Below are positions 2,418-44,000 of a stretch of DNA of 64,000 nucleotides, piece after piece. Within the stretch, counting starts at the first letter, position 1; every line of letters begins with the position of its first letter. Where the stretch lies: assembly GCA_963669155.1 (NCBI GenBank), contig OZ022588.1, forward strand, positions 1,026,525 through 1,090,524, in the 5' to 3' direction. Source of the DNA: Arbacia lixula (lineage: Eukaryota > Echinodermata > Echinoidea > Arbacioida > Arbaciidae). The notes below the pieces were generated by a model. The model saw nothing but the letters and a program-made list of their open reading frames with translations. It was not told where the DNA came from and did no database searches. The position numbers were made by a program, and so were the translations under genes.

Positions 2418-5400
2418 TTAGATCAACCATGTGAGGTTTATATTATTGTCAAGGAAAAATATTGAATTGTTTTGAGACCATCGTTTTATGAAGGCACACA
2501 GGTTGTTTTGAAGTTTGTAGAACTCAAGGTCTAGAATGATTTTGTTTTTTATTCTGAAGGTCCAGATAGGTAGAGGGTCAACAAAATGAGATGTGCGATA
2601 AAGCCAGTACAGTGTGCTCTTCAAACTGATAATAAGGAAATTGGATAGGCGAACAGTCTCCCTGCAACGACCTCGTACACGCGGAATCAGAGTCCAATAA
2701 AGTTCAAAGTTCAGCTTAGCCGTGGGCAGCAGACGGGATAGGAGATGGTGAAGAAGGCCCAATGCAGGTTGGATGAGCGGGCACAGGAAGAGCAGATGAA
2801 GAGTTGTGCCTCTTTCGCCGCACCATCCACATGATGAGGAAATGTTCGGATTCATGTGGTGAAGAACCGCTAATGAAGGCAGAACATTGTAGAGAAGTTT
2901 GAACTGGACGTCTCCATCTTTTTTGGAGGCTGGCACTTGATATATTTCGCTCCAAGCAACTCGACAAGAGGGTTCTAGAATGCCAATGTCATGCCAGTGT
3001 GTGACAGAAGATATTGGAAGAGAGTTTGTGGAGACGTTGAGGAGGTGATACAATCGCTTGGTGGATGTGATGAGAAAGTTCGTATTGTCATTGGCTTTGA
3101 CAGTGTATGGAGACAAAATATTGGCAGCAAGATGATGAAGTGGAAAGCCAGAAAGTCGAAGTCCGTTGGAACAGAAGAACGCTGGAAAGTTGTTGGACAG
3201 TTTCTTATGCATCCAAGAGAGTTCAAGTTCAAGGAGGCGAACAGAAGGACGAAGAAGTGTGGTGAGAGTGATATTTTCAGCCGGAAGCCACTTGCCATTT
3301 GTAGGGTTGAGAAGATGCTTCACGAGTTTGATTCCGCGTGCAAAAAGTCGAGCAGGGAGAACCATAGTGCCATTCAAGTCACATGAAAGTAAAATGGTGT
3401 AGTTTAAAGGAATATTTAACACATGGTTGACCGAGAAGGACGAACTTTCAATGTGTGCTCCGGAGGATCTCCAAGCACTCAGCACTTCGGAGTAAAAACA
3501 AGGCAAGCTCGTGTCATATTTTGGATCTGTTTCAATGAGGAACAACTGGAAATCAAAGTTGAGTCTTTTGTACTTCTTTAGGTTATAAGAACACAGAGCA
3601 TATGCAGGATGAGAAGAAAGGTTCAAAAAGCGCTGAAGGAAGGCAAAACGAAATGCAAGAACGCGTGCTTGGAGACACACTAGACCAAGTCCACCTTTAT
3701 TTGGTTCCTGATATAGAATCTGTTTTTTCAAAAGATGTCTTTTATTGGACCAGACGAAGTTGATAAGCATCTCTTGGAGTTCTGTCAATATCGACTTAGG
3801 GGGAGAAAGAGTGGCAAGATGGTGAAAGATTTTTGAGGCAGCTAATTGATTTGCTACGAGAATCTTGCCTTTCAATGAGAGACTATGTGTAATGGAGGTC
3901 CACCGCGTGAGAGTTTTGTTTAGTTTTTCTTCACACTTCATCCAGTTTTGATTTATGAATGTGTTGCTTGTACCAAGGTGAACCCCAAGAAATGTTAGTC
4001 CTTCATTATTCCACTTAAAGTGAAGAGGATTTTCACTCCGTCTGGACCAAGACCCTAGCCATAATCCTTGTGATTTCTCATGGTTAAGACAGGCATTTGA
4101 TGAAGTACTGAAAATGTTATACACTCTTTCAATTGTGTCAAAACCGGAGTCAGAGCTAACAAAAATAGATATATCATCAGCATACGCTGATACAGACACT
4201 TTCGTTCCGGTGTTGGGCAAGGTAAAACCAGAATCACCAGATGTAGGAAGGGTTCTATGGCGATTGAATATAACAGACCAGACATAGGACAACCTTGACG
4301 AATGCCTTTACGAAAGGGAAAAGGTGCGGATAGAGATCTGCACACCTTAACAAGACCCTCAGCATTTTTGTACAAGAGTTTTACACATGAGATAAAGAAG
4401 TCTCCGATACCCATGGCCTTCATTGTGCTGAACAGATAGTGGTGGTCAACGTTATCAAAGGCCTTCTTCTGATCTAGATTAACAATAGCAAGAGGGAAGT
4501 TATTGCAATTTGCAAAGTGAATTACATCTCTTATCAAGATAATATTGTCGTATATTGTTCTACCAGGTACACAGTACGACTGGTCATGATGAATGATATC
4601 GCCAATACACAGTTTAAGTCTGTTTGCAAGTGCCTTAGCAAAAATGTTGTAGTCGTTGTTGAGAAGGGATACAGGGCGCCAATTTGCAATGTCTGCCGGA
4701 TCCCCTTTCTTTAGAATGAGGGTAATAACCGCCTTATGAAAGGAGTTTGGAAGATTCCCAGATGTAATGGCATATTGCAGAACAGAAAGGAGATCATTTT
4801 TAAGGAGCGGCCAAAAAGTGAGGTAAAATTCAGAAGACAGGCCATCCAAACCTGGAGACTTGTTATTTCCAAGCTGTTTTACAGCAGTGGTAATTTCATC
4901 AAGTGTCAAAGGAGCGTCAAGATTTTCAGATTCTTCAGGTTCAAGCCGAGGAAGATTCGATAGAATAGTTTCAAGAGAGTTTTGGTCAGTAGGAATACTA
5001 CTATATAAGTGTTCATAGAAATTTCGTACATGAGCTTTGATTTCTCCTTGATCCTCTGTGATAACACCAGATGAAAGACGTATACGAGACATTGTTTTTG
5101 AAATAGAGTTGTTTTTTTCAAGATTGTAAAAGAAGCTGGAACTTGTATCAGCTTCATTGGCATATTGAAAGCGAGACCTAATCAGAGTTCCCTTAGCTTG
5201 TTTTTTAGGAGGAGATTGAGCTCCTCCCTCTGCTCAGTTAGAGCCTGTTGTATATCAGGTGTAAAGTCTGAATTAGATTGAAGCTTTTCGATAGTCTTGT
5301 TAATGTTCAAGAGGGTTTCTTTCTTTTCATTAGCTACCTTAGAAGCGTACATCTGAGTAAAAGATTTTATGTGGGATTTACCAAAGTCCCACCATGCACA

Positions 5401-6309
5401 AATATTCGGAAAGTCATGTATTTGTTGTTGCCAGGTATTCCAGAAATGAATAATGATATCTTGATAACTTTTATCAGTAAGTAGTGAGTTATTCAAGTGC
5501 CAAAAAGCACTTCCTCTCAGGTTTGGAGAAGGAAGTTTAATTTTCAGGTATATGGCAGAGTGATCTGAAAGGGAACAAGGTATGATTGAGCATGAGTGGA
5601 TGGATGTAGTTAAGCTAATAGGTGTATAAAAACGATCCAATCTGGCCTTAGAAACACCATGAACACTAGAGGGATTTCTTCTCTGCCAAGAAAATTTTTG
5701 TTCAAAGGGGTGTAGCTTGCGCCAGGCATCACACAATTGAGAACTCTCATTCAAAGCTTTCAGAGCCGTGGATATTTTTGATCTATGTTCAGTGGACATG
5801 CATAAACGGTCAATAACAGGATTTAGGGTGCAGTTAAAGTCACCACCAAATATGATATGTCCATCTTTGCGTAGATTTAAGTGAGATGAAAGTGAACTGA
5901 TAGCCTTCAGTGCACAAGTATCATCTTGAGGAATCAAAATATTATACAAGTGGTATATGGCACCTTCAAGATCAATTTTGACATATAAAATATGGCCATC
6001 ATGAATGACAGAATTTTCTATGATGCAAAGAGAATTTTCCTTTAGAAGCGTGGTTACCCCTGATCCTCGTGTAGGTCCAGGGTTACAAATTGGATGGTAT
6101 GATGACCATACATTCCAGCACGAGCATTTTTCAGATAAATCATTAGTTTCCTGTAAGAATATAATATCCGGTACAGAAGTAATATTTTTGACGTAGGTAT
6201 AGATAGAGGCATTTTTCAAGGGAGAAGAACAGCCTCCAGTATTGAGTGTGAGAAGCGATATTGTCATAGGGAGGAAGAGGGAAAGGAAAGCATGTATTGC
6301 AACAAACAT
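2418..6309 (-). pseudogene. LINE ORF2: endonuclease and reverse transcriptase, frameshifted
   Basis: This encodes the retrotransposon's endonuclease and reverse transcriptase, about 1,297 codons if counted through. The APE-type endonuclease lies at about 6,290-5,500, with LNTGG, FLQET, GGDFN, LDRF and a C-terminal SDH, so its catalytic motifs look complete. The reverse transcriptase follows, with KSPGLDGL, LDQKKAFDNVDH (motif A), RQGCPMSGLLY (motif B) and YADD at 4,184-4,173. A CCHC-type motif sits at 2,831-2,781. Two frame changes are visible. One is near 5,195-5,210 in an A-run, where one frame stops at 5,182 and the next takes over. The other is near 4,245-4,260, between motif B and YADD. 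The first in-frame ATG is at 6,309, 13 bases after the ORF1 stop; a frame-open stretch upstream lacks an earlier ATG. The coding frame is otherwise well preserved, which suggests a fairly recent insertion. Confidence 0.9.
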
Positions 6310-6322
6310 AATGAATGAGAAA

Positions 6323-7609
6323 TTAAGCACAGTCTTCTAACTTTCTGACTAGTTTTTGAATCCTTTGCTGAGTGCTTTTTTGAAAAAGTGGGCTGTTTCT
6401 TAGTGGTCGTAGTTGGCGCACGAGTCCAGGAATGTTTGACGTGAATTTTTTGGCAACATCCAAAGGTTTTTTCCGGGCTTTTACTGTTTTCAGAAACTTA
6501 ATAAGTTCCTTATCTGAGAGGGGACCCTGGCTAGAGGGAAAAGAGGAGGCCCAGTCAACAGAATCGTCATCAGTATCTTCCCACATCGTCGCGTGAGTAC
6601 CAATTGTTCCCGTGGAAGCAGGAGTGGGTGGGTGGGCGGTGCTGAGTGAGAAGCTTGAGAGGGGGTGGGTGACGGAAACATTTTGGGGGTGGAAACTTTT
6701 TTTTGAAGTTTCCGTGGAGGGGTGGGTGATTGAAGGGGGACGAGAACAGGAGTCTTGTTAGAGGAAGGGGCTGGGGGCTGTTTCCTTTTTGAGACTACTT
6801 CTGAAAAGAGTCTGGTAGGGGCGGGAGGTGTACCCCAAACAGAGACAACGGGTAGTGGTTTTGGTGGATTTGATAGATTTGAAGGGGTGTCAGTAGGGGT
6901 GGATGTTGGATTTTCATTTTCATGGTTGTTGCAAACAAAAGCATTAGTATTTTTAGGGAGGTTGGGAGGAGCGTCTACTTGTGATGTAGTTGACAAGGAG
7001 TCTTCTACGGTAGGGATTGTGTCGTGATTCGAGACGGGTTTAGGCTGTGGACCTACGTTTGACGGGTCGGCAGATTCATGATTTTCACGCGCAGGGACGT
7101 GTTGAGATGTAGCGCTGGAATTAGGTTGCGCGGATTTTGAACGTTTGGGAGGGTGTTTAGGGTCAGATTTACCCTTATTTGATGTGGGCGGTTGACTATC
7201 AATCGTGGGCCCATCTTGCCGTGCGGCTTTTTTGCACGCCCGGCTGATATGGCCCGTCTCTCCACACTCAAAACACCGTACTGATTCTGTCGATAGAAAA
7301 ACGCGGTAGTTTGCTCCCGCGTGGCTGAAATTTATGTGATCGGGGGGTGTGACGTTGGGATTTAGCAACACTTGGACGTGTCTTCGGAATGACATGATAT
7401 GGGCTAGATTTTTTGTCCTTGAAACCCAAGGGAATTGCTCGAATTTGCGACACAACTTTGCAGAAGTTTGATATTTGCTTAGTCAGGGTATCGTTCGGAA
7501 TTTCCGGGTAGACATTTGATAATGTGAGCCTGGTGGTTGGAAGTACTAGGGGGGAAACTGGAATGTATGTGTTATTGTACGTTAGCCCATTGTTTACTGC
7601 ACTGAGAAC
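6323..7609 (-). pseudogene. LINE ORF1, C-terminal part (frameshifted)
   Basis: Downstream portion of the LINE nucleic-acid-binding protein. Starting at the foldback insertion, it reads through a conserved-looking block containing LTLSNVYPEIPN and SFRRHVQVLLNPNV. A CCHC zinc knuckle (CFECGETGHISRAC) follows at 7,275-7,234, then a Pro/Ser/Thr-rich linker and a short basic C-terminus ending LEDCA at 6,326. The first frame change, near 7,415-7,425, coincides with a run of six A; one A fewer would restore the frame into NLAHIMSFRR. The second lies around 6,600-6,650 in a CCCACCCAC tract. With the 84-codon upstream part at 13,094-13,345, ORF1 would be about 512 residues. Confidence 0.85.
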
Positions 7610-7615
7610 ATCGTC

Positions 7616-7761
7616 TGTTGCACCACAAATTGTCGTCCCTGCACAAATTGACGTCGACGACAATTTGTGCAGAACCCTGACACCACAAATTGTCGTCCCT
7701 GCACAAATTGACGTCGACGACAATTTGTGCAGGGGGCTGACACCACAAATTGTCGTCCCCC
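7616..7761. repeat. Left terminal domain of foldback element: 60-bp palindromic tandem units
   Basis: Two and a half copies of a 60-bp unit start at 7,620, 7,680 and 7,740. Each carries CACCACAAATTGTCGTC followed by the dyad GCACAAATTG...CAATTTGTGC. The same units appear inverted at 12,983-13,093, so they form the terminal inverted repeats, and each unit can itself fold into a small hairpin. Confidence 0.9.
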
Positions 7762-7909
7762 CTCGAAACACATTCAATATGACGTTGAAGCCTTCAAGGC
7801 CATTAGGGGCTTACATTTTTGTTAATATGATAATTCCTGACAAACATAATACATGAAAACCAACACATAACTCAAGTGCACACAAACCAAAATAAAAGGT
7901 CACGTTAAA

Positions 7910-8388
7910 GTTTGTGTGTGTGTGTGTGTGTGTGTGTACGTGTGTGCGTGAGTGTGTGTGTTTGCGTGCGTGCGTGCATGTGTGAGTGTGTGCGTGCGGG
8001 TGTGTGTGTATGTGCGTTGTGTGAGTGTGAGTGAGTGTGTGCGTGCATGTGTGTGTGATTGTGTGTGTGCGTGTGTGTGAGTGTGAGTGTGTGTGTGCAT
8101 GTGTGTGTGATTGTGTGTGTGTGTGTGTGAGCGTGTGTGTGCGTGTGTGAGTATGTGCGTGTGTGTATGAATGTGTGTGTGTGTGCGTGTGTGTGTGTGA
8201 GTGTGTGTGTGTGTGCGGGTGTATGTGTATGTGCGTGTTTGTGACTGTGTGTGTGTGCGTGCATTTGTGTGTGATTGTGTGTGTGCGTGTGTGAGAGTGT
8301 GTGTGTGTGTGTGTGTGCGTGTGAGTGTTTTTGTGTCTGTGTCTGTGTGTGTGTGTGTGTGTGTGTAGGGGGGGGGGGGGGTGGGGGG
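7910..8388. repeat. Imperfect (GT)n block and G-run in left arm
   Basis: About 460 bp of GT repeat with GC, GA and AT interruptions, ending in a G-run. A CA-rich block occupies the mirrored position in the right arm (12,440-12,793), as expected for inverted arms. Frames encoding TH/HT strings across it are not genes. Confidence 0.9.
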
Positions 8389-8507
8389 TTATGGGGTAGC
8401 TGTACCAGGTCAACGGATTGAATCAAGGTTTGTGTGTATTGTGCCCGAAATAGTCCCCATTTAGTAGACTAGAATTGTGTGAATCAGTGGGGCGGTTAAG
8501 CAACAAA

Positions 8508-9670
8508 TATGAGGTGAATTGTGCACTTTTGTCTACCAGCACCAAATTTGGCACACATGTTCAAAATCATATTTGGAACAATATAGAGGCATTTTTAGGG
8601 GCGCCTGGGAGCAGCCACCAAAGTGCCCTAGGGGCCCTCATTTGTTATTTTTACTTTTTGAAAACGCACGCCCTGACTTGAAAAAAAAAAGAACTTGATA
8701 TGAATCATCCTTGGATAATAGGGACCTTACCTTGTTAAAATGTGTGGTCATAAGGGGCAAGGGGGCCGGTGGATAGCCCCCAAACGCCCCCGGGGGCATT
8801 TTTTTTTTGTTTTAGGACATTTCCTCAAGAAAAAATAACTTGATTTTAACCAAACTTGATAGGAATCATCCTTAGGTAATAGCAAACTTTAATTGTTAAA
8901 CTTGGGATACAACAAGAAGCAAGTGGCTGGGGAAGGGGGGGTAGCCCCCAAAACGCGGCGGGGGAAACTTTCTTTAAAATTTTTAAATACTTTCTCTCAA
9001 GAATAAATAACTAGAATCATCCTTAGGGATTAGGGACCTTAAGTTGTTAGAATGGGGGGGGGGGGGGGGGTGGCACAAATCGCAAGGTGCCGGGAGGGGG
9101 TAGCCCCCCCCCCCCCTTCCCAAAAAAAAAAAAAAAGGAGAGAGAGAGAAAAAAAACGGGCAACTTCTTCTTAATTTTTCTACTTTTTCAGAAGAATTAA
9201 TAACTTTTTAACCAAACTTGATACGAACCATCCTTAGGTATAAGGGACCTTAAGTTCTTAAAATGGTGGTATGCAAGTGGCAAGGGACGGGGGGGGGGGG
9301 GGGGGCTAGCCCCAAAAGTTCCCCAAGGGGGTAAATTCCACTTATGTTTTCCTTTTTACTCAAAGGTAAATGACTGGATTTTAATCAAACTTGAAAGAAG
9401 TCACCTCTAAAAAGTGGACTTAGGGTTGTAAAAATGGGATACATATCTAAAAAATGAATGTTGGATCTCATCAAAGCTCCACAGATTATTCTCAGACAAT
9501 TGTACCCCATCTGACAGCACAGCCCCTCCCCCACCACATCAGAAATGCGCCTTGCGGTCCATTATTTCAAGAAAAACGGAATGTTTTCTCGAATGTATCC
9601 AAACTGCACAGTAAAAAAGGATAATCTAACGTACACATCTGAGGAGGAGACAAGGAGGATCAAAGATTGA
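8508..9670. repeat. Left inner arm of foldback element with ~160-200-bp internal repeats
   Basis: The arm opens with GTGCACTTTTGT...AGCACCAAATTTGGCACACATGT and is matched in inverted orientation by 11,895-10,726. Inside it a block recurs near 8,691, 8,851, 9,011, 9,211 and 9,386. Each block has an ACTTGATA-GGAATCATCCTTAGG core, a GGGACCTTA motif, and a G-run/C-run pair around GTAGCCCC. The G/C pairs are themselves small inverted repeats. Confidence 0.85.
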
Positions 9671-10725
9671 GTCCAAAATGACTGCCAAAGCCATGTATTT
9701 AGCTTTATTCTGTTCCACTTTTACCTACAAGCATCAAATTTGGTACATAGGTTCATGATTATGAACTAAACACAATTAGATATAGAGGCGCTTAAACATA
9801 TGTCCTTGAGACGCCATTTTTCATGTAGGCGTCTAACTTAGCTACCAAAACAATGTTTATAGCTTTGTAGTTTTTGAGGCCTCAGAACTGGTGGCTATAT
9901 CCATAATGGCTGGAAATTTCTGTCAGAACTCTTGGTCAACCGCCATACCATGGACCCTATCACGTGGACCGGTCCATGGAAAGGCGATGGACCAAGAGTT
10001 TATACAGATGATGGAATGAGCAGCTCCTGAAGAGAAACATGACATTGCATTGTGTGAAAAGAATGTCACCATGAATCTATCTAAAAAAATCGATAAATAA
10101 AGAGTATTTATTTACATCACTTAATGTAGCAAACATTATGTTTCTTAGTTAAGTAATTAGCGCATCAATTTTATCTTCCCGTTGACACTGATTTTTTTTA
10201 CGGATTTCTATTCTATCTAGCCTTTTCACAATCAACTATCATGCACCATTGAGTGATGTGACAATTTGTATTTTGTTTATTCAAATTTTGGTGGCCATCT
10301 TGAAAACTGATTGACTACATTTTATTTGTTTATATTTTCCATTATAGTTATTTTCTATGGAAATAGTAATTGCATCACTGTTCTTTCATATACTGAGCAT
10401 TACCGATTATTCTTTCACCATGTTCACTGCTAACTATCTTATATATGGTTATAAAAAGAGTCTTAAAACATTTATAAGTATTATTATGTCATGATACTGA
10501 AGGATGGCGAAATTGATAAAATTTTTAAAAAAATGCCTCAAAACGATATCTCATATCATTCCAGATAGTATTTTAAACATATGTTCAAAATTTGGTGCTT
10601 GTCGAAAAAAGTTAGCAGGACGAAAGAAAAATGTTAAGACATGCACTGAGGGAGGGAACGAAGTCCCCCCATGAAAACAAGCTTAGTAATTGACATGTAA
10701 GGTGCTATATTAATTTCGAGGGTGG
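9671..10725. other. Central region of foldback element
   Basis: AT-rich loop between the arms, without a coding frame. A short imperfect hairpin lies at 9,927-10,000 (AACTCTTGGTC... paired with ...GACCAAGAGTT). Weak inverted similarity persists inward: CAAATTTGGT near 9,737 against a TTTGGTGCTTG stretch near 10,590. Confidence 0.7.
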
Positions 10726-11895
10726 GGGGGGGGGGTCCTCCTTGTCCCCTCATCAGATGAGTACGCGACTACATGTGTATGTTAGATTATCCTTAGTAAC
10801 TGCACAGTTTGGATAAATTTGAGAAAACACTCTTTTTTTCTTAACATTTTGGACCGCAAGGCGCATTTCTGAGGTGGTGGGCGAGGGAGAAGGGGGAGGG
10901 TGGCTAGTTCATGACAGATGGGATCCCCTTTTGTAACAAATTTTCCCATTGCTTCAGAATAATCTCTCGAGTTTTGATGAAATCTAACATTCATTTTTAG
11001 ATATGTATCCCATTTTTACAACCTAATTAGGTCCTCATTTCCGAGGTGACTTCTTTCAACTTGGTTAAAAGACAGTCATGTACCGTTGCGAAAAGGTAAC
11101 AAAACCAGTGGACTTTGCCCCCTGGGGGCATTTGGGGGCTCCCCCCCCCCCTCGCCACTTGCATAACATTATCTTAATAACTTAGGTACCTATTATTATT
11201 TATTCATTTTGTATTCTTCTGAAAAAGTAAAGAATAAGAGGAACTGGAGGCATTTTTTTTTTTTTTTTTTTTTTTTTGGGGGGGGGGGGGGCTACCCCAT
11301 CCCAGTTCCTTGCAATTTGTGTCCCCCCATTCTAACAACTTAAGGTCCCTAATACCTAAGGGTGGTTCCAGTTATTTATCCTTGAGAAAAAGTATTAGAA
11401 AAATAAAAGGAAACTTCCCCCTGGGGGTTTTGGGGGATACCCCCCCCCCCTCCCCTTCCCCAGCCCCTTGCCACTTGTGTACCCCAAATCTAACATCTAA
11501 TGTTCCCTATTACCACAGGATGATACCTATCTAGTTTGGTTAAAATCCAGTTATTTATTCTTGAGAAAATGTCCCAAAATAAGATAAAAATGCCCCCAGG
11601 GGAGTTTGGGGGCTATCCCCCGGCCTTCTTGCCATTTACGACCACACATTTGAAAAAAGGTAAGGTACCTATTGCCTAAGGATGATTCCTATCAAGGTTT
11701 TTTTTCAAGTCCCGCCGTGCGTTTTCGAAAAGAAGTTAATAACATATAAGTGCCCCTGGGGCAATTTGGGGGCTGCACCCAGGTGTCCCTGAAAACATTT
11801 TGAGATACCTCTATATCTAATATTGTCCGAAATATGATTTTGAACATGTGTGTCAAATTTGGTGCTTGTACACAAAAGTGCACAATTATTCACCT
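10726..11895. repeat. Right inner arm of foldback element
   Basis: Inverted counterpart of 8,508-9,670. Good matches include GCACAGTTTGGAT near 10,802, GACCGCAAGGCGCATTTCTGA near 10,853, GGATGATTCCTATCAAG near 11,680 and the outer block CAAATTTGGTGCTTGTAC near 11,852. It carries the same G-run/C-run blocks as the left arm. By eye identity is roughly 75-85%, so the arms have diverged since duplication. Confidence 0.85.
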
Positions 11896-11926
11896 TATCC
11901 ACTCCACTAGTGTGGGTTGGTAAGTG

Positions 11927-12001
11927 TATGGGTGTGGATGTCTGTCTGTATGGTGGTGTGCGTGTGTGTTTTTGTGTATGTGTGTGTGTGTGGGGGGGGG
12001 G
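11927..12001. repeat. (GT)-rich tract in right arm
   Basis: Short GT-rich stretch ending in a run of nine G. It has no clear mirrored partner in the left arm and may be a later change. Confidence 0.7.
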
Positions 12002-12439
12002 TGTACGTGCAGTTAACACAAATACTGCTCTAAGAGAATAAAGACAGTTAACACAGTCAAGTTTTGAGTTCTAACACATAAAAGTGGGGCAATACCAGAA
12101 CAAACAATTCATAAACTGTTTCCCCTGCTTTCGTATTATTCCTAGAAGGAGATAATGAAATTTGACTTTAAGTGACTCGCTGTCTTTACTCTAGAGCATT
12201 GTCAATTATTTTCATTTTGTCTTATTGGCACGATCATAAGGGTGATCATATTTTGATATTTGTTTATAATTCCATTCACTATCATGACATTTCTTTTTTG
12301 TAATCACACCAATATAGTAACCCCGATGACCATCGTCACTGTGTAATTTTTATTATATTTATAGAACAATGAAACAGAGGGCGATGCAAAACCCATTGGC
12401 TAATTCCTCAACACAAATACACGACTTCACATCTACACA

Positions 12440-12755
12440 ATGTACACATACACGCGCGCGCCCCCCCCCCACACACACACAATCACACAACCACCACCAT
12501 CACCATGCACCCACACGTAATATTCCGTACTTACACAGTTACGCACACATATATTGCACACACCCACCTCAACATCCCCACGTACACATACATACCAGCT
12601 CAACACTCATTGCTAACACACGCACACGCAAACAACCTAGCCCATACGCCAGCACGCGCGCAACACACACGCACACACACACACACACACACATGCACAC
12701 ATACACACACCCACCCACCCACACACACATACACACACGCACACACACAATTACA

Positions 12756-12793
<38 letters not shown>
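12440..12793. repeat. Imperfect (CA)n block in right arm
   Basis: CA-rich block with GC and CCCA interruptions, in the position and orientation expected for the inverted copy of the left GT block. ACAC-encoded frames are not genes. Confidence 0.9.
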
Positions 12794-12794
<1 letters not shown>

Positions 12795-12844
12795 TACATA
12801 CACATCACAGGCACAACCACACATGGCAATATTTTGAAGACAGG

Positions 12845-13093
12845 GACTGGTGACAATTTGTGCAAGGGGTGACAATTTGTGCAAGGGGTGACAATTTGTG
12901 CAACGAGCTATCAGTTTGCCTGCACAAATTGTCGTCCGTGAGGGTGAAAAATGGGAACATCACCTGCAGCACAAATTGACGCCGACGACAATTTGTGCAG
13001 GGGACGACAATTTGTGGTGTCAGGTTTTGTCAAATTTTGCACAAATTGTCGCCGACGACAATTTGTGCAGGGACGACAATTTGTGGTGCAACA
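12845..13093. repeat. Right terminal domain of foldback element
   Basis: Three tandem copies of a 19-bp unit (TGACAATTTGTGCAAGGGG) at about 12,850-12,903 are followed by palindromic units built from GCACAAATTGTCG and its complement. The last 52 bases are nearly the reverse complement of 7,616-7,667, which defines the terminal inverted repeat. Confidence 0.9.
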
Positions 13094-13345
13094 ATCGTCC
13101 TTTGAATTGAGGTAAATCGCAATGCGCTGATTGCTGATACGTGACGCTGAGAGAACACGGTTGGCAGGTGTAGTTGATACAAAAGCTTTAATGTATTCAT
13201 GTATGGAAATATCTGGTGCTGCATTGAACGAGATTCCATTGCTTCTACTGACTGCCTTTATCGGTCCGCCAGCAGAAGCAACGGGAGGCTTAGCCGAACT
13301 GGTCCCCGGCTGGTCCCGGGAGACCTGTTCGGCTGCACCGGCCAT
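13094..13345 (-). pseudogene. LINE ORF1, N-terminal part
   Basis: Eighty-four codons from ATG at 13,345 (MAGAAEQVSRDQPG...) to the insertion point of the foldback element. They end NQRIAIYLNSKDD, where the last two codons are the duplicated target GACGAT. The reading frame is the same as that of 7,609 and below, so only the foldback element separates the two halves. An upstream in-frame ATG at 13,420 exists, but its extension is hydrophobic and unlike an ORF1 start, so 13,345 is preferred. Confidence 0.85.
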
Positions 13346-41081: not shown

Positions 41082-44000
41082 CTATAATCAATAACATCAA
41101 TTTTTTTTATTTCTTATTTTTGCTTGTTTTGCCTTTACTTGATACTCTCTGTAATAACAGATTGATTAACTAAAATATAGATTAATCATCTATTCTCTGT
41201 CTGCAATATTCATTTTCTGAATAAAGTCTATTTAGGCCTTGCACTAACTCTGTATATGCTTTGTGTGCATTTTATCACCAATATCACCAAAGAACCCATT
41301 TTTTTTAGAGCCTTTTCTTACCCTCCTCAAAAATGTGTCTTAAAATATATCTTCTCTCTATTGAAATGCGGACTGCAAGATAATCTACTGCATAGTTCAC
41401 CCATTGTTCATGGTGATTTGGGGGCTTTGTGGATGCTGGTCCAGTTAGGACCAGTTTGTTAGGGCAGAGGATTTTTAAACTGTAAAAAATATTCCTACGG
41501 TAGTCACAGTGCAGTTAAGAAACAAGTAGGTCATAGTAAAATTGAATGAATGCAACAACATGCTGACAGTGCTCAATCAGCGATAACAAAACTTGGAGAC
41601 CAAAATCTCACTGCGTACAAAGTTTCAGATGAGCAGAGCTTCAAGGAACATAATGTTAACTTGTATAAGTTTGTAATGTGCAACTGGAGTACCCTACTCC
41701 AGCTGATTACTGTGTACTCACCGACAGCACTGATAGATGGGTGCAAGTATAGTCCCTTCATCTAAGTATGGGTTCCCAAAACTAGAGAAGAGGAAGACAC
41801 ACATGAAGTTGTTACACAATATGAACAAAATATTGAGAGAACTAGTTAGGATTCCCAAATGAGAGCTTTGTTAATGATATGTATTTTATATTGTGAGTAC
41901 TAAAAACAAAGTACACTGTATATTAATCACAATGCTTTCTTATGTCCTGATTGAAAAAAAAAAGACTTTTAACATTCAACCTAAGTTTAAAAATCCAACT
42001 TATCATTTTATGGAACACTACTTGTTTCAAACTATTTGTTTAACATGTTCTATCATTAAGTCATTTGGGTCGATAAATCGTTTCATGACGAAGCAGAAAG
42101 AAGTGTCTCTATGTGGCATAAGGACTTTATCCATTTCCTGCGGAAACTGGGTATTCTCGGTTCTCAGAAATGGAGCGACCTTACCTTGTTTTAACTCTAT
42201 TCTAAGTACTTATTTAAATACTGTTGATGTGTGCATTGACTAGATTGACACTTTCGTGCAAAAATATTGTTCATCAAAGATTTTACTAAACATAGTATGT
42301 CAGTCCGTAGGAAATTGCTATACCACAATACACACTGTGTGCACTGATGGCATGTTTTTCATATAAAATCATTCTAAAATCTTCATTGGACACACATTGG
42401 CAATGTACCAGTCAAGCAAACACCTTTCTTTGTCATTAGTGTTCACATGCATAGTACAAAGGCTGCACAGACCAATAATAAGCTTGTTTTAGGCTGCAAA
42501 CACTGGTCCAAAAATCTTATCATCAACAGGTGACACTTCCCACTCCATTCCCCTCACCTTTTGGCGTTGTCCATGTGGAGCAGCATACCGCGGTCGCCGT
42601 CCGCTTCAAAAGTCTCGTACATGTGGCGGTCAGCGTTGCCGATGAGGTAGTCGAAGACGGCTGCATCAGCCATGTGGAGAATGAGTGGGTGGCGGTCAGG
42701 GGGCACCTTGGTCATCAGATCCGTGCAGTACTGGTCATCTGTCTCCCACCTTCCGGTCAAGGTGGAGAGAAAGGCAAAAAAGAAGCGTTGGTCTTTTTTT
42801 TCGTTCATTCCTTCATCGCAATAGCAAGTCCACAGGATTAGTTGAGGTCCAGTGAAAAAAATCACAATAGTGACATTCTCATTGGGCTTACAAAATTGCG
42901 ATTTTAGAAAAATTGCGAAGTTAGGGTGAAAGTTGCCTAGCAACTGTACCAAAAGTACGGCATGGTCATTATTGTCCCTATTGTCTGCTAACTTCATGAT
43001 TTTTCTAACATCACAATTTTTAAAGCCTAATGAGAAGGGCACTACTGAGGCTCAGAGCGATTTACATACATGTAGTACCAACGAAGCATAAAAGGCCCCT
43101 GTAAACTGCACATCATGTTTCTGGGTGTCCATTCATTCGTATAATTTTTGAAAAGTGTTCCCAGCAAGGAATTTTTTAATTCAGTCAGTGAAAAAATGGC
43201 ATGGGGCTCGGTGATGATTGAGCCCCTGCAACGCAAAAGAAAACACTCAGCACATAACAATAGAGCCCATATAAACAATTATTTGATCTCATTTGGTAAA
43301 TGTATAACTTTCCCTTTCTACCCTGTCCTATGCTCTTCTAGTCAGTGAAGTCTCCCATATTCCTATCCATCTCCTACACTGTTTGATTGGATCTTGCTCT
43401 GGAGTGTGAACAAGGTGTCCGGTTTGTTCTTTGGTTTGTCCAAATCTGCAATGTTTCATCCCAGCTAGATAACTGGCCTATCTCAATTATCTCTAATAAT
43501 TACTACACCATTCATTTCGGTCACGATGTCCCTCTAAACCTGATTTTTTTTATAACCTGACCCTTCCTGTGATACCTATCACGATGCTATGCATATTGAT
43601 TGAATATTGCACATCATATAATATGTTTGGTCCTCAATTCATAATATTACTTGTTAGGTCCTGAATTCATGATAACATTTGTAAGGCCCTCATTGCAGAC
43701 TTAAGCTGGAAACCCGCCATCCCTTGAAAAGACGACACTCACTTTGCTTTCTTCCCCTCCTTGTACGTTCTGGACCACAAGTGCCTCCACTTCTTGAGTT
43801 TGCGTTCTGGGGGCAGCCATAGGGTGAGGGAGCCCTCCATCATATCTCCCTCCCCGCACGCTGCGTCATCAGGCTTGCAGTAGTAGCACTTGCCATAGAA
43901 ACAGGTGTTTCCATCTTTCACACAGAAGAGAAGGTATAGTGTTATAATGTATTATATCGGCTTTTTCTTGTTTCATATGACACTATTGACTTGGCAGTAC

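Follow-up and report, generated by a model that had tools for sequence, protein, structure and literature searches.

How does a large palindromic transposon that carries no recognised gene come to move, and what kind of enzyme moves it? The question is raised by a 64,000-bp stretch of the genome of the sea urchin Arbacia lixula (contig OZ022588.1 of assembly GCA_963669155.1; genome position C13:1026525-1090524), hereafter the window, in which a foldback DNA transposon interrupts open reading frame 1 (ORF1) of a long interspersed nuclear element (LINE). A first-pass annotation, made from the letters of the window, had described a large non-autonomous inverted-repeat element with exact TG...CA ends and a 6-bp target duplication, and could not name its superfamily. 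Comparison across the genome supports that structure and strengthens the transposon reading. From the target sites of its relatives we propose, with a probability of roughly 0.6, that a DDE transposase of retroviral-integrase type, supplied in trans, mobilises the element. The proposed likeness is one of working, and no membership in a named superfamily is claimed.

Target duplications of two lengths

The terminal sequence of the foldback family is TGTTGCACCACAAATTG, and both ends of the window element read TGTTG, giving it TG..CA termini. A search of 607 Mb of genome gave 248 exact matches to the 20-bp end (123 on the plus strand, 125 on the minus strand) and none to its reversed control; the ends given by the first-pass annotation are constant over the family. 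Two of the exact matches are in the window, one on either strand, where 0.01 would be expected by chance with ≤3 mismatches allowed. When the flanks of other copies were tabulated, as that annotation had recommended, the ends remained the same and the duplications fell into two lengths. The 51 copies scored comprise 35 pairs from the first 100 listed ends, 13 copies elsewhere (window included), L027, whose right end has one mismatch, and two long pairs; L016 was scored by the outer of its two left ends. Exact duplications of 6 bp flank 22 of these copies and exact duplications of 5 bp flank 23, and six are without an exact one: L038 (4/5), L040, L041, L044 (5/6), L045 (5/6) and the C15 pair (4/5). 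A length of 6 bp, right for the window copy, therefore fails as a rule for the family, by the very criterion (copies with another duplication length) that the first-pass annotation had set for its refutation. No exact duplication longer than 6 bp was found in the 51 copies, and the 45 with an exact duplication of 5 or 6 bp indicate movement with a short target duplication. Outside this count, L087, a copy of 141 bp whose left end is altered, has flanks that agree at 5/6 positions.

Both length classes share their outer positions. An A stands three bases outside the left edge (−3) in 18/22 sites of each class (p 1e-6), a T three bases outside the right edge (+3) in 19/22 of each (p 8e-8), and the two occur jointly in 15/22 sites of either class; the 23rd 5-bp site, not included here, also has the T at +3 but a G at −3. 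Since the T of the 5-bp class lies at +3 and not at +4, these sites are not 6-bp duplications minus one base. The paralogous empty site of one 5-bp copy, L031, has a single TGCCC and aligns without a gap, and loss of a base as the origin of the 5-bp class was ruled out on these two grounds. The empty site of L046 is weaker evidence, being gap-free but different within the duplicated bases, and the alignments to the empty sites of L035 and L017 are gapped close to the junction.

The centres of the sites differ between the classes. Six-bp sites have a central CG in 15/22 cases (background CpG 0.0234 per step at window positions 14001-64000; p 5e-20) and a central pyrimidine-purine (YR) step in 18/22. 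A CG at any position is found in 3/23 five-bp sites versus 15/22 six-bp sites (Fisher p 2e-4), and GGG or CCC, which are A-philic, in 12/23 versus 2/22; the sites that revealed these patterns of length and sequence also served to test them, and a fresh set is needed. Thirty-five exact duplications pooled are 69% G+C. Length can differ between copies that are almost the same: the window copy, L020 and L024, the latter two on other contigs, have 99.9% substitution identity, yet the window copy and L024 made 6-bp duplications and L020 one of 5 bp.

The proposed transposase and its alternatives

Retroviral intasomes make duplications of 4–6 bp with symmetric T/A or A/T preferences two or three bases outside, the A/T preference at three bases belonging to integrases with threonine at the equivalent of HIV-1 Ser119, and they favour central YR steps and central flexibility (PMC4422553). 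A-philic sequence has been described at joining sites (PMC9410886). The A at −3 and T at +3, together with TGT...ACA ends, therefore point to an integrase-type transposase. In the mechanism we envisage, direct CACAAATTGTCG copies at positions 9 and 27 of the ends would bind the enzyme, and two active sites, one for each end, would carry out the joining at target positions three bases inside an A. How far apart the two cuts fall would depend on target shape, with 6 bp where the centre is a flexible CG and 5 bp where the target is rich in GGG or CCC; the long arms are probably passengers.

We give even odds to the more specific proposal that a single integrase-type transposase keeps its outer contacts fixed (A at −3, T at +3) while its stagger changes between 5 bp and 6 bp with the mechanical properties of the target centre (CG versus GGG/CCC). 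Two related transposases might instead serve one family, each with its own stagger and its own central preference, as the different centres of the two classes would suggest. The outer A/T positions and counts are, however, equal in both classes, and near-identical copies occur in both, so the two enzymes would have to use the same ends more or less simultaneously; we regard this account as possible but doubtful.

An autonomous partner with the same ends, which the first-pass annotation had advised looking for, was absent from the copies read, only part of whose frames were put through a family search. In the window element and the other copies read, no frame resembling a transposase was seen by eye, and the long frames belong to microsatellites or to nested LINEs. 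The first 100 ends of the list form 35 pairs, all read (26 whole, nine at their ends only), and 30 unpaired ends, 20 of which were sampled by 251 bases and two more covered within L027 and L042. Sixteen of the 20 samples match the family and four do not (L049, L051, L059 and L066); L049 falls outside the 141-bp copy L087 and L051 lies beyond a truncated end (L088). Among the nine mapped pairs longer than 6 kb, six were read whole (L011, L012, L017, L025, L029 and L030), C15 and C16 were sampled and C21 (7.0 kb) was left unread. All eight pairs examined contain inserts, which look LINE-like by eye apart from a 0.7-kb insert in L011. A Pfam check of six inserted frames identified RVT_1 (L029), Exo_endo_phos (L025) and zf-RVT (L016), and no domain in those of L012, L030 and C16. 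A 17-mer compared with viral contigs gave 14 matches, regarded by estimate as chance.

Several observations count against an integrase-type enzyme. No transposase was seen in any copy read, so we infer the enzyme from the site pattern alone. PF24764, an integrase core that we take to be a marker of IS3EU/GingerRoot, has 17 matches in the genome; the majority have open frames, and several score equally, as copies would. None of the 17 lies inside a mapped pair of ends (223 of the 248 ends being mapped); the nearest known family end is 3.9 kb off and outside. One match, at C9:15347306-15347845, lies ~3.3 kb outside a left end of the family at C9:15351161, and the single locus read, L103 (C14:438900-441900), has no matching end in 3 kb. 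Known integrase-type superfamilies have a dominant single length (4 bp in Ginger1, 4 or 5 bp in Ginger2, usually 6 bp in IS3EU/GingerRoot). Unlike retroviral sites, five-bp sites show a deficit of YR at the two steps of their centre (7/23, background 0.48). This deficit is at odds with a simple account of the link between length and sequence, and so is a second result: the halves of 18 six-bp sites form 23/54 complementary pairs against a shuffled-column mean of 26.9, and the palindrome therefore belongs to the average site and not to single sites.

The element might also belong with another cut-and-paste superfamily as a non-autonomous relative, hAT5/hAT6 (5- or 6-bp duplications) being the best candidate. 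hAT elements prefer bases within an 8-bp site. The literature recognises hAT groups of both duplication lengths, 5 bp and 6 bp (PMC12730594), which adds to the points just listed, and no transposase was found in the family to settle its class. We nonetheless consider this unlikely, as the TGT...ACA ends, the A at −3 and T at +3 and the central CG fit integrase-type targeting. Here both lengths occur in one family; that source treats hAT5 and hAT6 as distinct groups.

The length of the target duplication serves to place orphan transposons in superfamilies, on the view that the enzyme sets it. If a single integrase-type enzyme does switch its stagger, a cut-and-paste element would take its duplication length from the target DNA, and the enzyme would not fix it. 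In the present family, near-identical copies differ in duplication length, and length tracks the target centre while the outer contacts stay constant. These sites offer natural material on how target shape determines the spacing of two cuts, a matter otherwise studied on retroviral intasomes.

The element, its host LINE and its family

The target named in the first-pass annotation, a LINE ORF1, is borne out by minus-strand domain matches to RVT_1 (6.5e-23), Exo_endo_phos (2.4e-7) and zf-CCHC (3.6e-5). ATCGTC stands on both sides of the element as had been described (Table 1), and joining the flanks at a single ATCGTC leaves the ORF1 frame open across the junction (...IAIYLNSKDDVLSAVNNG...), again as expected from that description. 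A further ORF1 frame change lies ≤~350 bp from the insertion, and the host ORF1 is therefore not intact even without the element. For an empty LINE copy, the check that the first-pass annotation had called for, the genome was queried with 200 + 200 bases of joined flank (42 candidates, 40 scored), which returned 41 matches. At 27 other places the match spans the whole 400-base join; 24 of these are exactly 400 bases long and 10 are top-scoring (perfect). The two halves of the window locus appear as separate matches, and nine matches are distant (64–65%). Because of the 27 full-length matches, we conclude that the host LINE is young (10 other places with the top score), that empty copies are common and that the element is a clean insertion. 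Another LINE copy, at C5:4625659-4626397, is broken at query base 207/208 by a different 337-bp stretch, about seven bases from the insertion point of the window element.

Long palindromes and microsatellites are difficult to assemble, and a misassembly, or a chance palindrome beside a chance repeat, could imitate such a locus. Given 248 recurring ends, exact duplications in 45/51 copies and empty LINE copies identical across the junction, we regard the probability of an artefact as negligible. It is refuted for the ends and the insertion; the lengths of the inner arrays could still be misassembled. A chance palindrome was likewise dropped as a candidate. So was a long terminal repeat retrotransposon, the terminal repeats being inverted and not direct despite the TG..CA ends.

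Structurally, the element has long, inverted, largely self-complementary arms with internal tandem units, as in a foldback transposon. Its first 35 bases match the last 35, inverted, with zero mismatches, and the outer 115–125 bp of the two ends are 86% identical in inverted orientation. The palindrome is older than the present burst of copies, because the inner arms, ~1.1 kb each, differ by ~26%, far above the divergence from copy to copy.

Table 1 Features of the foldback element and its host LINE in the window
Feature	Position	Strand	Remarks
Foldback DNA transposon without recognised gene	7616..13093	+	5478 bp; ends TGTTGCACC...GGTGCAACA
Target duplication, left copy ATCGTC	7610..7615	.	Edge analysis; empty LINE copies
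Target duplication, right copy ATCGTC	13094..13099	.	Edge analysis; empty LINE copies
Left terminal block, 60-bp unit x2	7616..7760	+	
12-bp motif CACAAATTGTCG in left block	Element positions 9, 27, 43(-), 69, 87, 103(-), 129		≤1 mismatch
Right terminal block	12851..13093	-	10 copies of the 12-bp motif CACAAATTGTCG (≤1 mismatch), both directions
GT-rich array in left arm	7914..8366, approximate edges	+	Sequence; has inverted partner
CA-rich array in right arm, inverted partner of GT array	12663..12792	-	
Inner left arm, diverged ~160-bp units	8517..9638	+	74% identity to inverted inner right arm
Inner right arm	10773..11887	-	
Central stretch, outside main arm pairing	9639..10772	.	By eye, no transposase-like frame
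Host LINE: reverse transcriptase, endonuclease, CCHC part of ORF1	2418..7609	-	
Host LINE: ORF1 start, severed by element	13100..13345	-	

The base before the 20-bp end is C in 102 of the 248 occurrences, A or T in 90 and therefore G in the remaining 56. The 223 ends mapped include 100 of the 102 preceded by C, all of those preceded by A or T and part of those preceded by G, and they resolve into 68 neighbouring pairs and 87 unpaired ends. Pair spans run from 80 bp (three pairs) through 113–143 bp (five), 451–801 bp (three), 1.0–2.5 kb (13) and 2.5–5 kb (four) to 5–6 kb (31), with nine longer. Among variant ends, nine diverge at base 18 and one lacks YC after the 20-mer. At C8:3374035-3374690, three variant TGTTGCACCACAAATTGC ends are spaced exactly 319 bases apart, like a tandem array grown from a copy. 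Inside L016 (309-3095), in LINE-like sequence, there is a second copy of the left end together with its flank AGAATGCGCGTC, produced by rearrangement or assembly error.

The three 80-bp copies, the shortest of the family, fold as near-perfect hairpins (z −13 to −17). Their duplications are exact, at 5, 6 and 6 bp, and CACAAATTGTCG lies at positions 9 and 27 in L034 and L035. Should the 80-bp copies have moved in that form, ~40 bp per end would suffice given an enzyme from a partner, which would narrow what movement needs and, with the enzyme identified, allow a simple mobility assay. Because palindromes readily undergo deletion, these copies could instead have shrunk after insertion; the data do not distinguish these courses, although the occurrence of three copies at exactly 80 bp speaks for movement as 80-bp elements.

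The family is young and recently moving. We compared 20 elements longer than 5 kb by the longest aligned stretch of each pair and kept the 169 of 190 pairs with >1500 aligned bases, over which the median substitution identity is 97.0% (gaps excluded); the lowest value is 75.4% (L029/L030). L017 and L025 are 99.8% identical and contain the same nested LINE piece at different sites with different 5-bp duplications, and the element therefore moved together with its passenger. The literature searched, in the parts available, holds no description of this foldback family, which is weak evidence that it is unpublished. Elsewhere in the window, a minus-strand frame at 42554-43042 contains a partial Fam20C kinase domain (1.5e-18) and is probably an exon of a host gene.

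Comparison with known systems

Galileo has a 7-bp duplication, and the foldback element of sea urchins, named TU, one of 8 bp. Like the window element, Galileo has long arms with internal repeats (PMC3573991), but it is a foldback of the P superfamily, whereas here the duplications are 5–6 bp and the ends TGT...ACA. TU elements share with the present family that they are foldback elements of an echinoderm (1983 paper cited in PMC4079207). Most described foldback elements are of Mutator type (FB, Tm1, Tetris-like), and Tetris matches our family in its inverted arms of tandem units, variable middle and absence of coding capacity, in a miniature relative with only the ends in common and in the lack of an autonomous copy (PMC4079207). 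A Mutator origin would account for this architecture; it is nevertheless very improbable, since the duplications of Tetris, and mostly those of Mutator-type foldbacks, are 8–10 bp (PMC4079207) and 0/51 copies here have such a length. The first-pass annotation had called TG...CA ends with a 6-bp duplication unusual among cut-and-paste elements with foldback structure. TG...CA ends with duplications of 5–6 bp are indeed unusual for the foldback elements of the literature consulted; for integrase-type enzymes (Ginger, IS3EU/GingerRoot, retrovirus-like) they are expected.

The integrase-type superfamilies come nearer in part. Ginger1 and Ginger2/TDD have TGTNR termini, which TGTTG fits, and an integrase-type enzyme with site preference, and no foldback structure is described for them in the available part of the source (PMC2836005). 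Ginger1 makes a 4-bp CCGG/CCGT duplication, in contrast to 5 or 6 bp here, and Ginger2 one of 4 bp (TDD 5 bp) at an AT-rich RTATAY target, in contrast to 69% G+C and about half of the copies at 6 bp (PMC2836005). IS3EU/GingerRoot elements make 6-bp duplications, and GingerRoot termini are occasionally TG..CA; however, termini are mostly TA..TA and the source as available describes no 5-bp class (PMC10045372), whereas here 22/51 copies have 6 bp and 23/51 have 5 bp. Ginger1, Ginger2 and IS3EU/GingerRoot thus each lack a defining feature or share it by half.

Retroviral integration resembles the present case in its 4–6 bp duplications, symmetric outer A/T preference and central YR steps (PMC4422553), and differs in that here an inverted-repeat DNA element, in which no retroviral genes were seen, makes two lengths per family. 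IS481EU elements are from parabasalid protists, and their duplications, of ~4, 15 and 25 bp, are about a helix turn apart, unlike the 5 and 6 bp found here; they share with the Arbacia family TGT...ACA ends (Histomonas families) and more than one duplication length within one family (PMC10045372).

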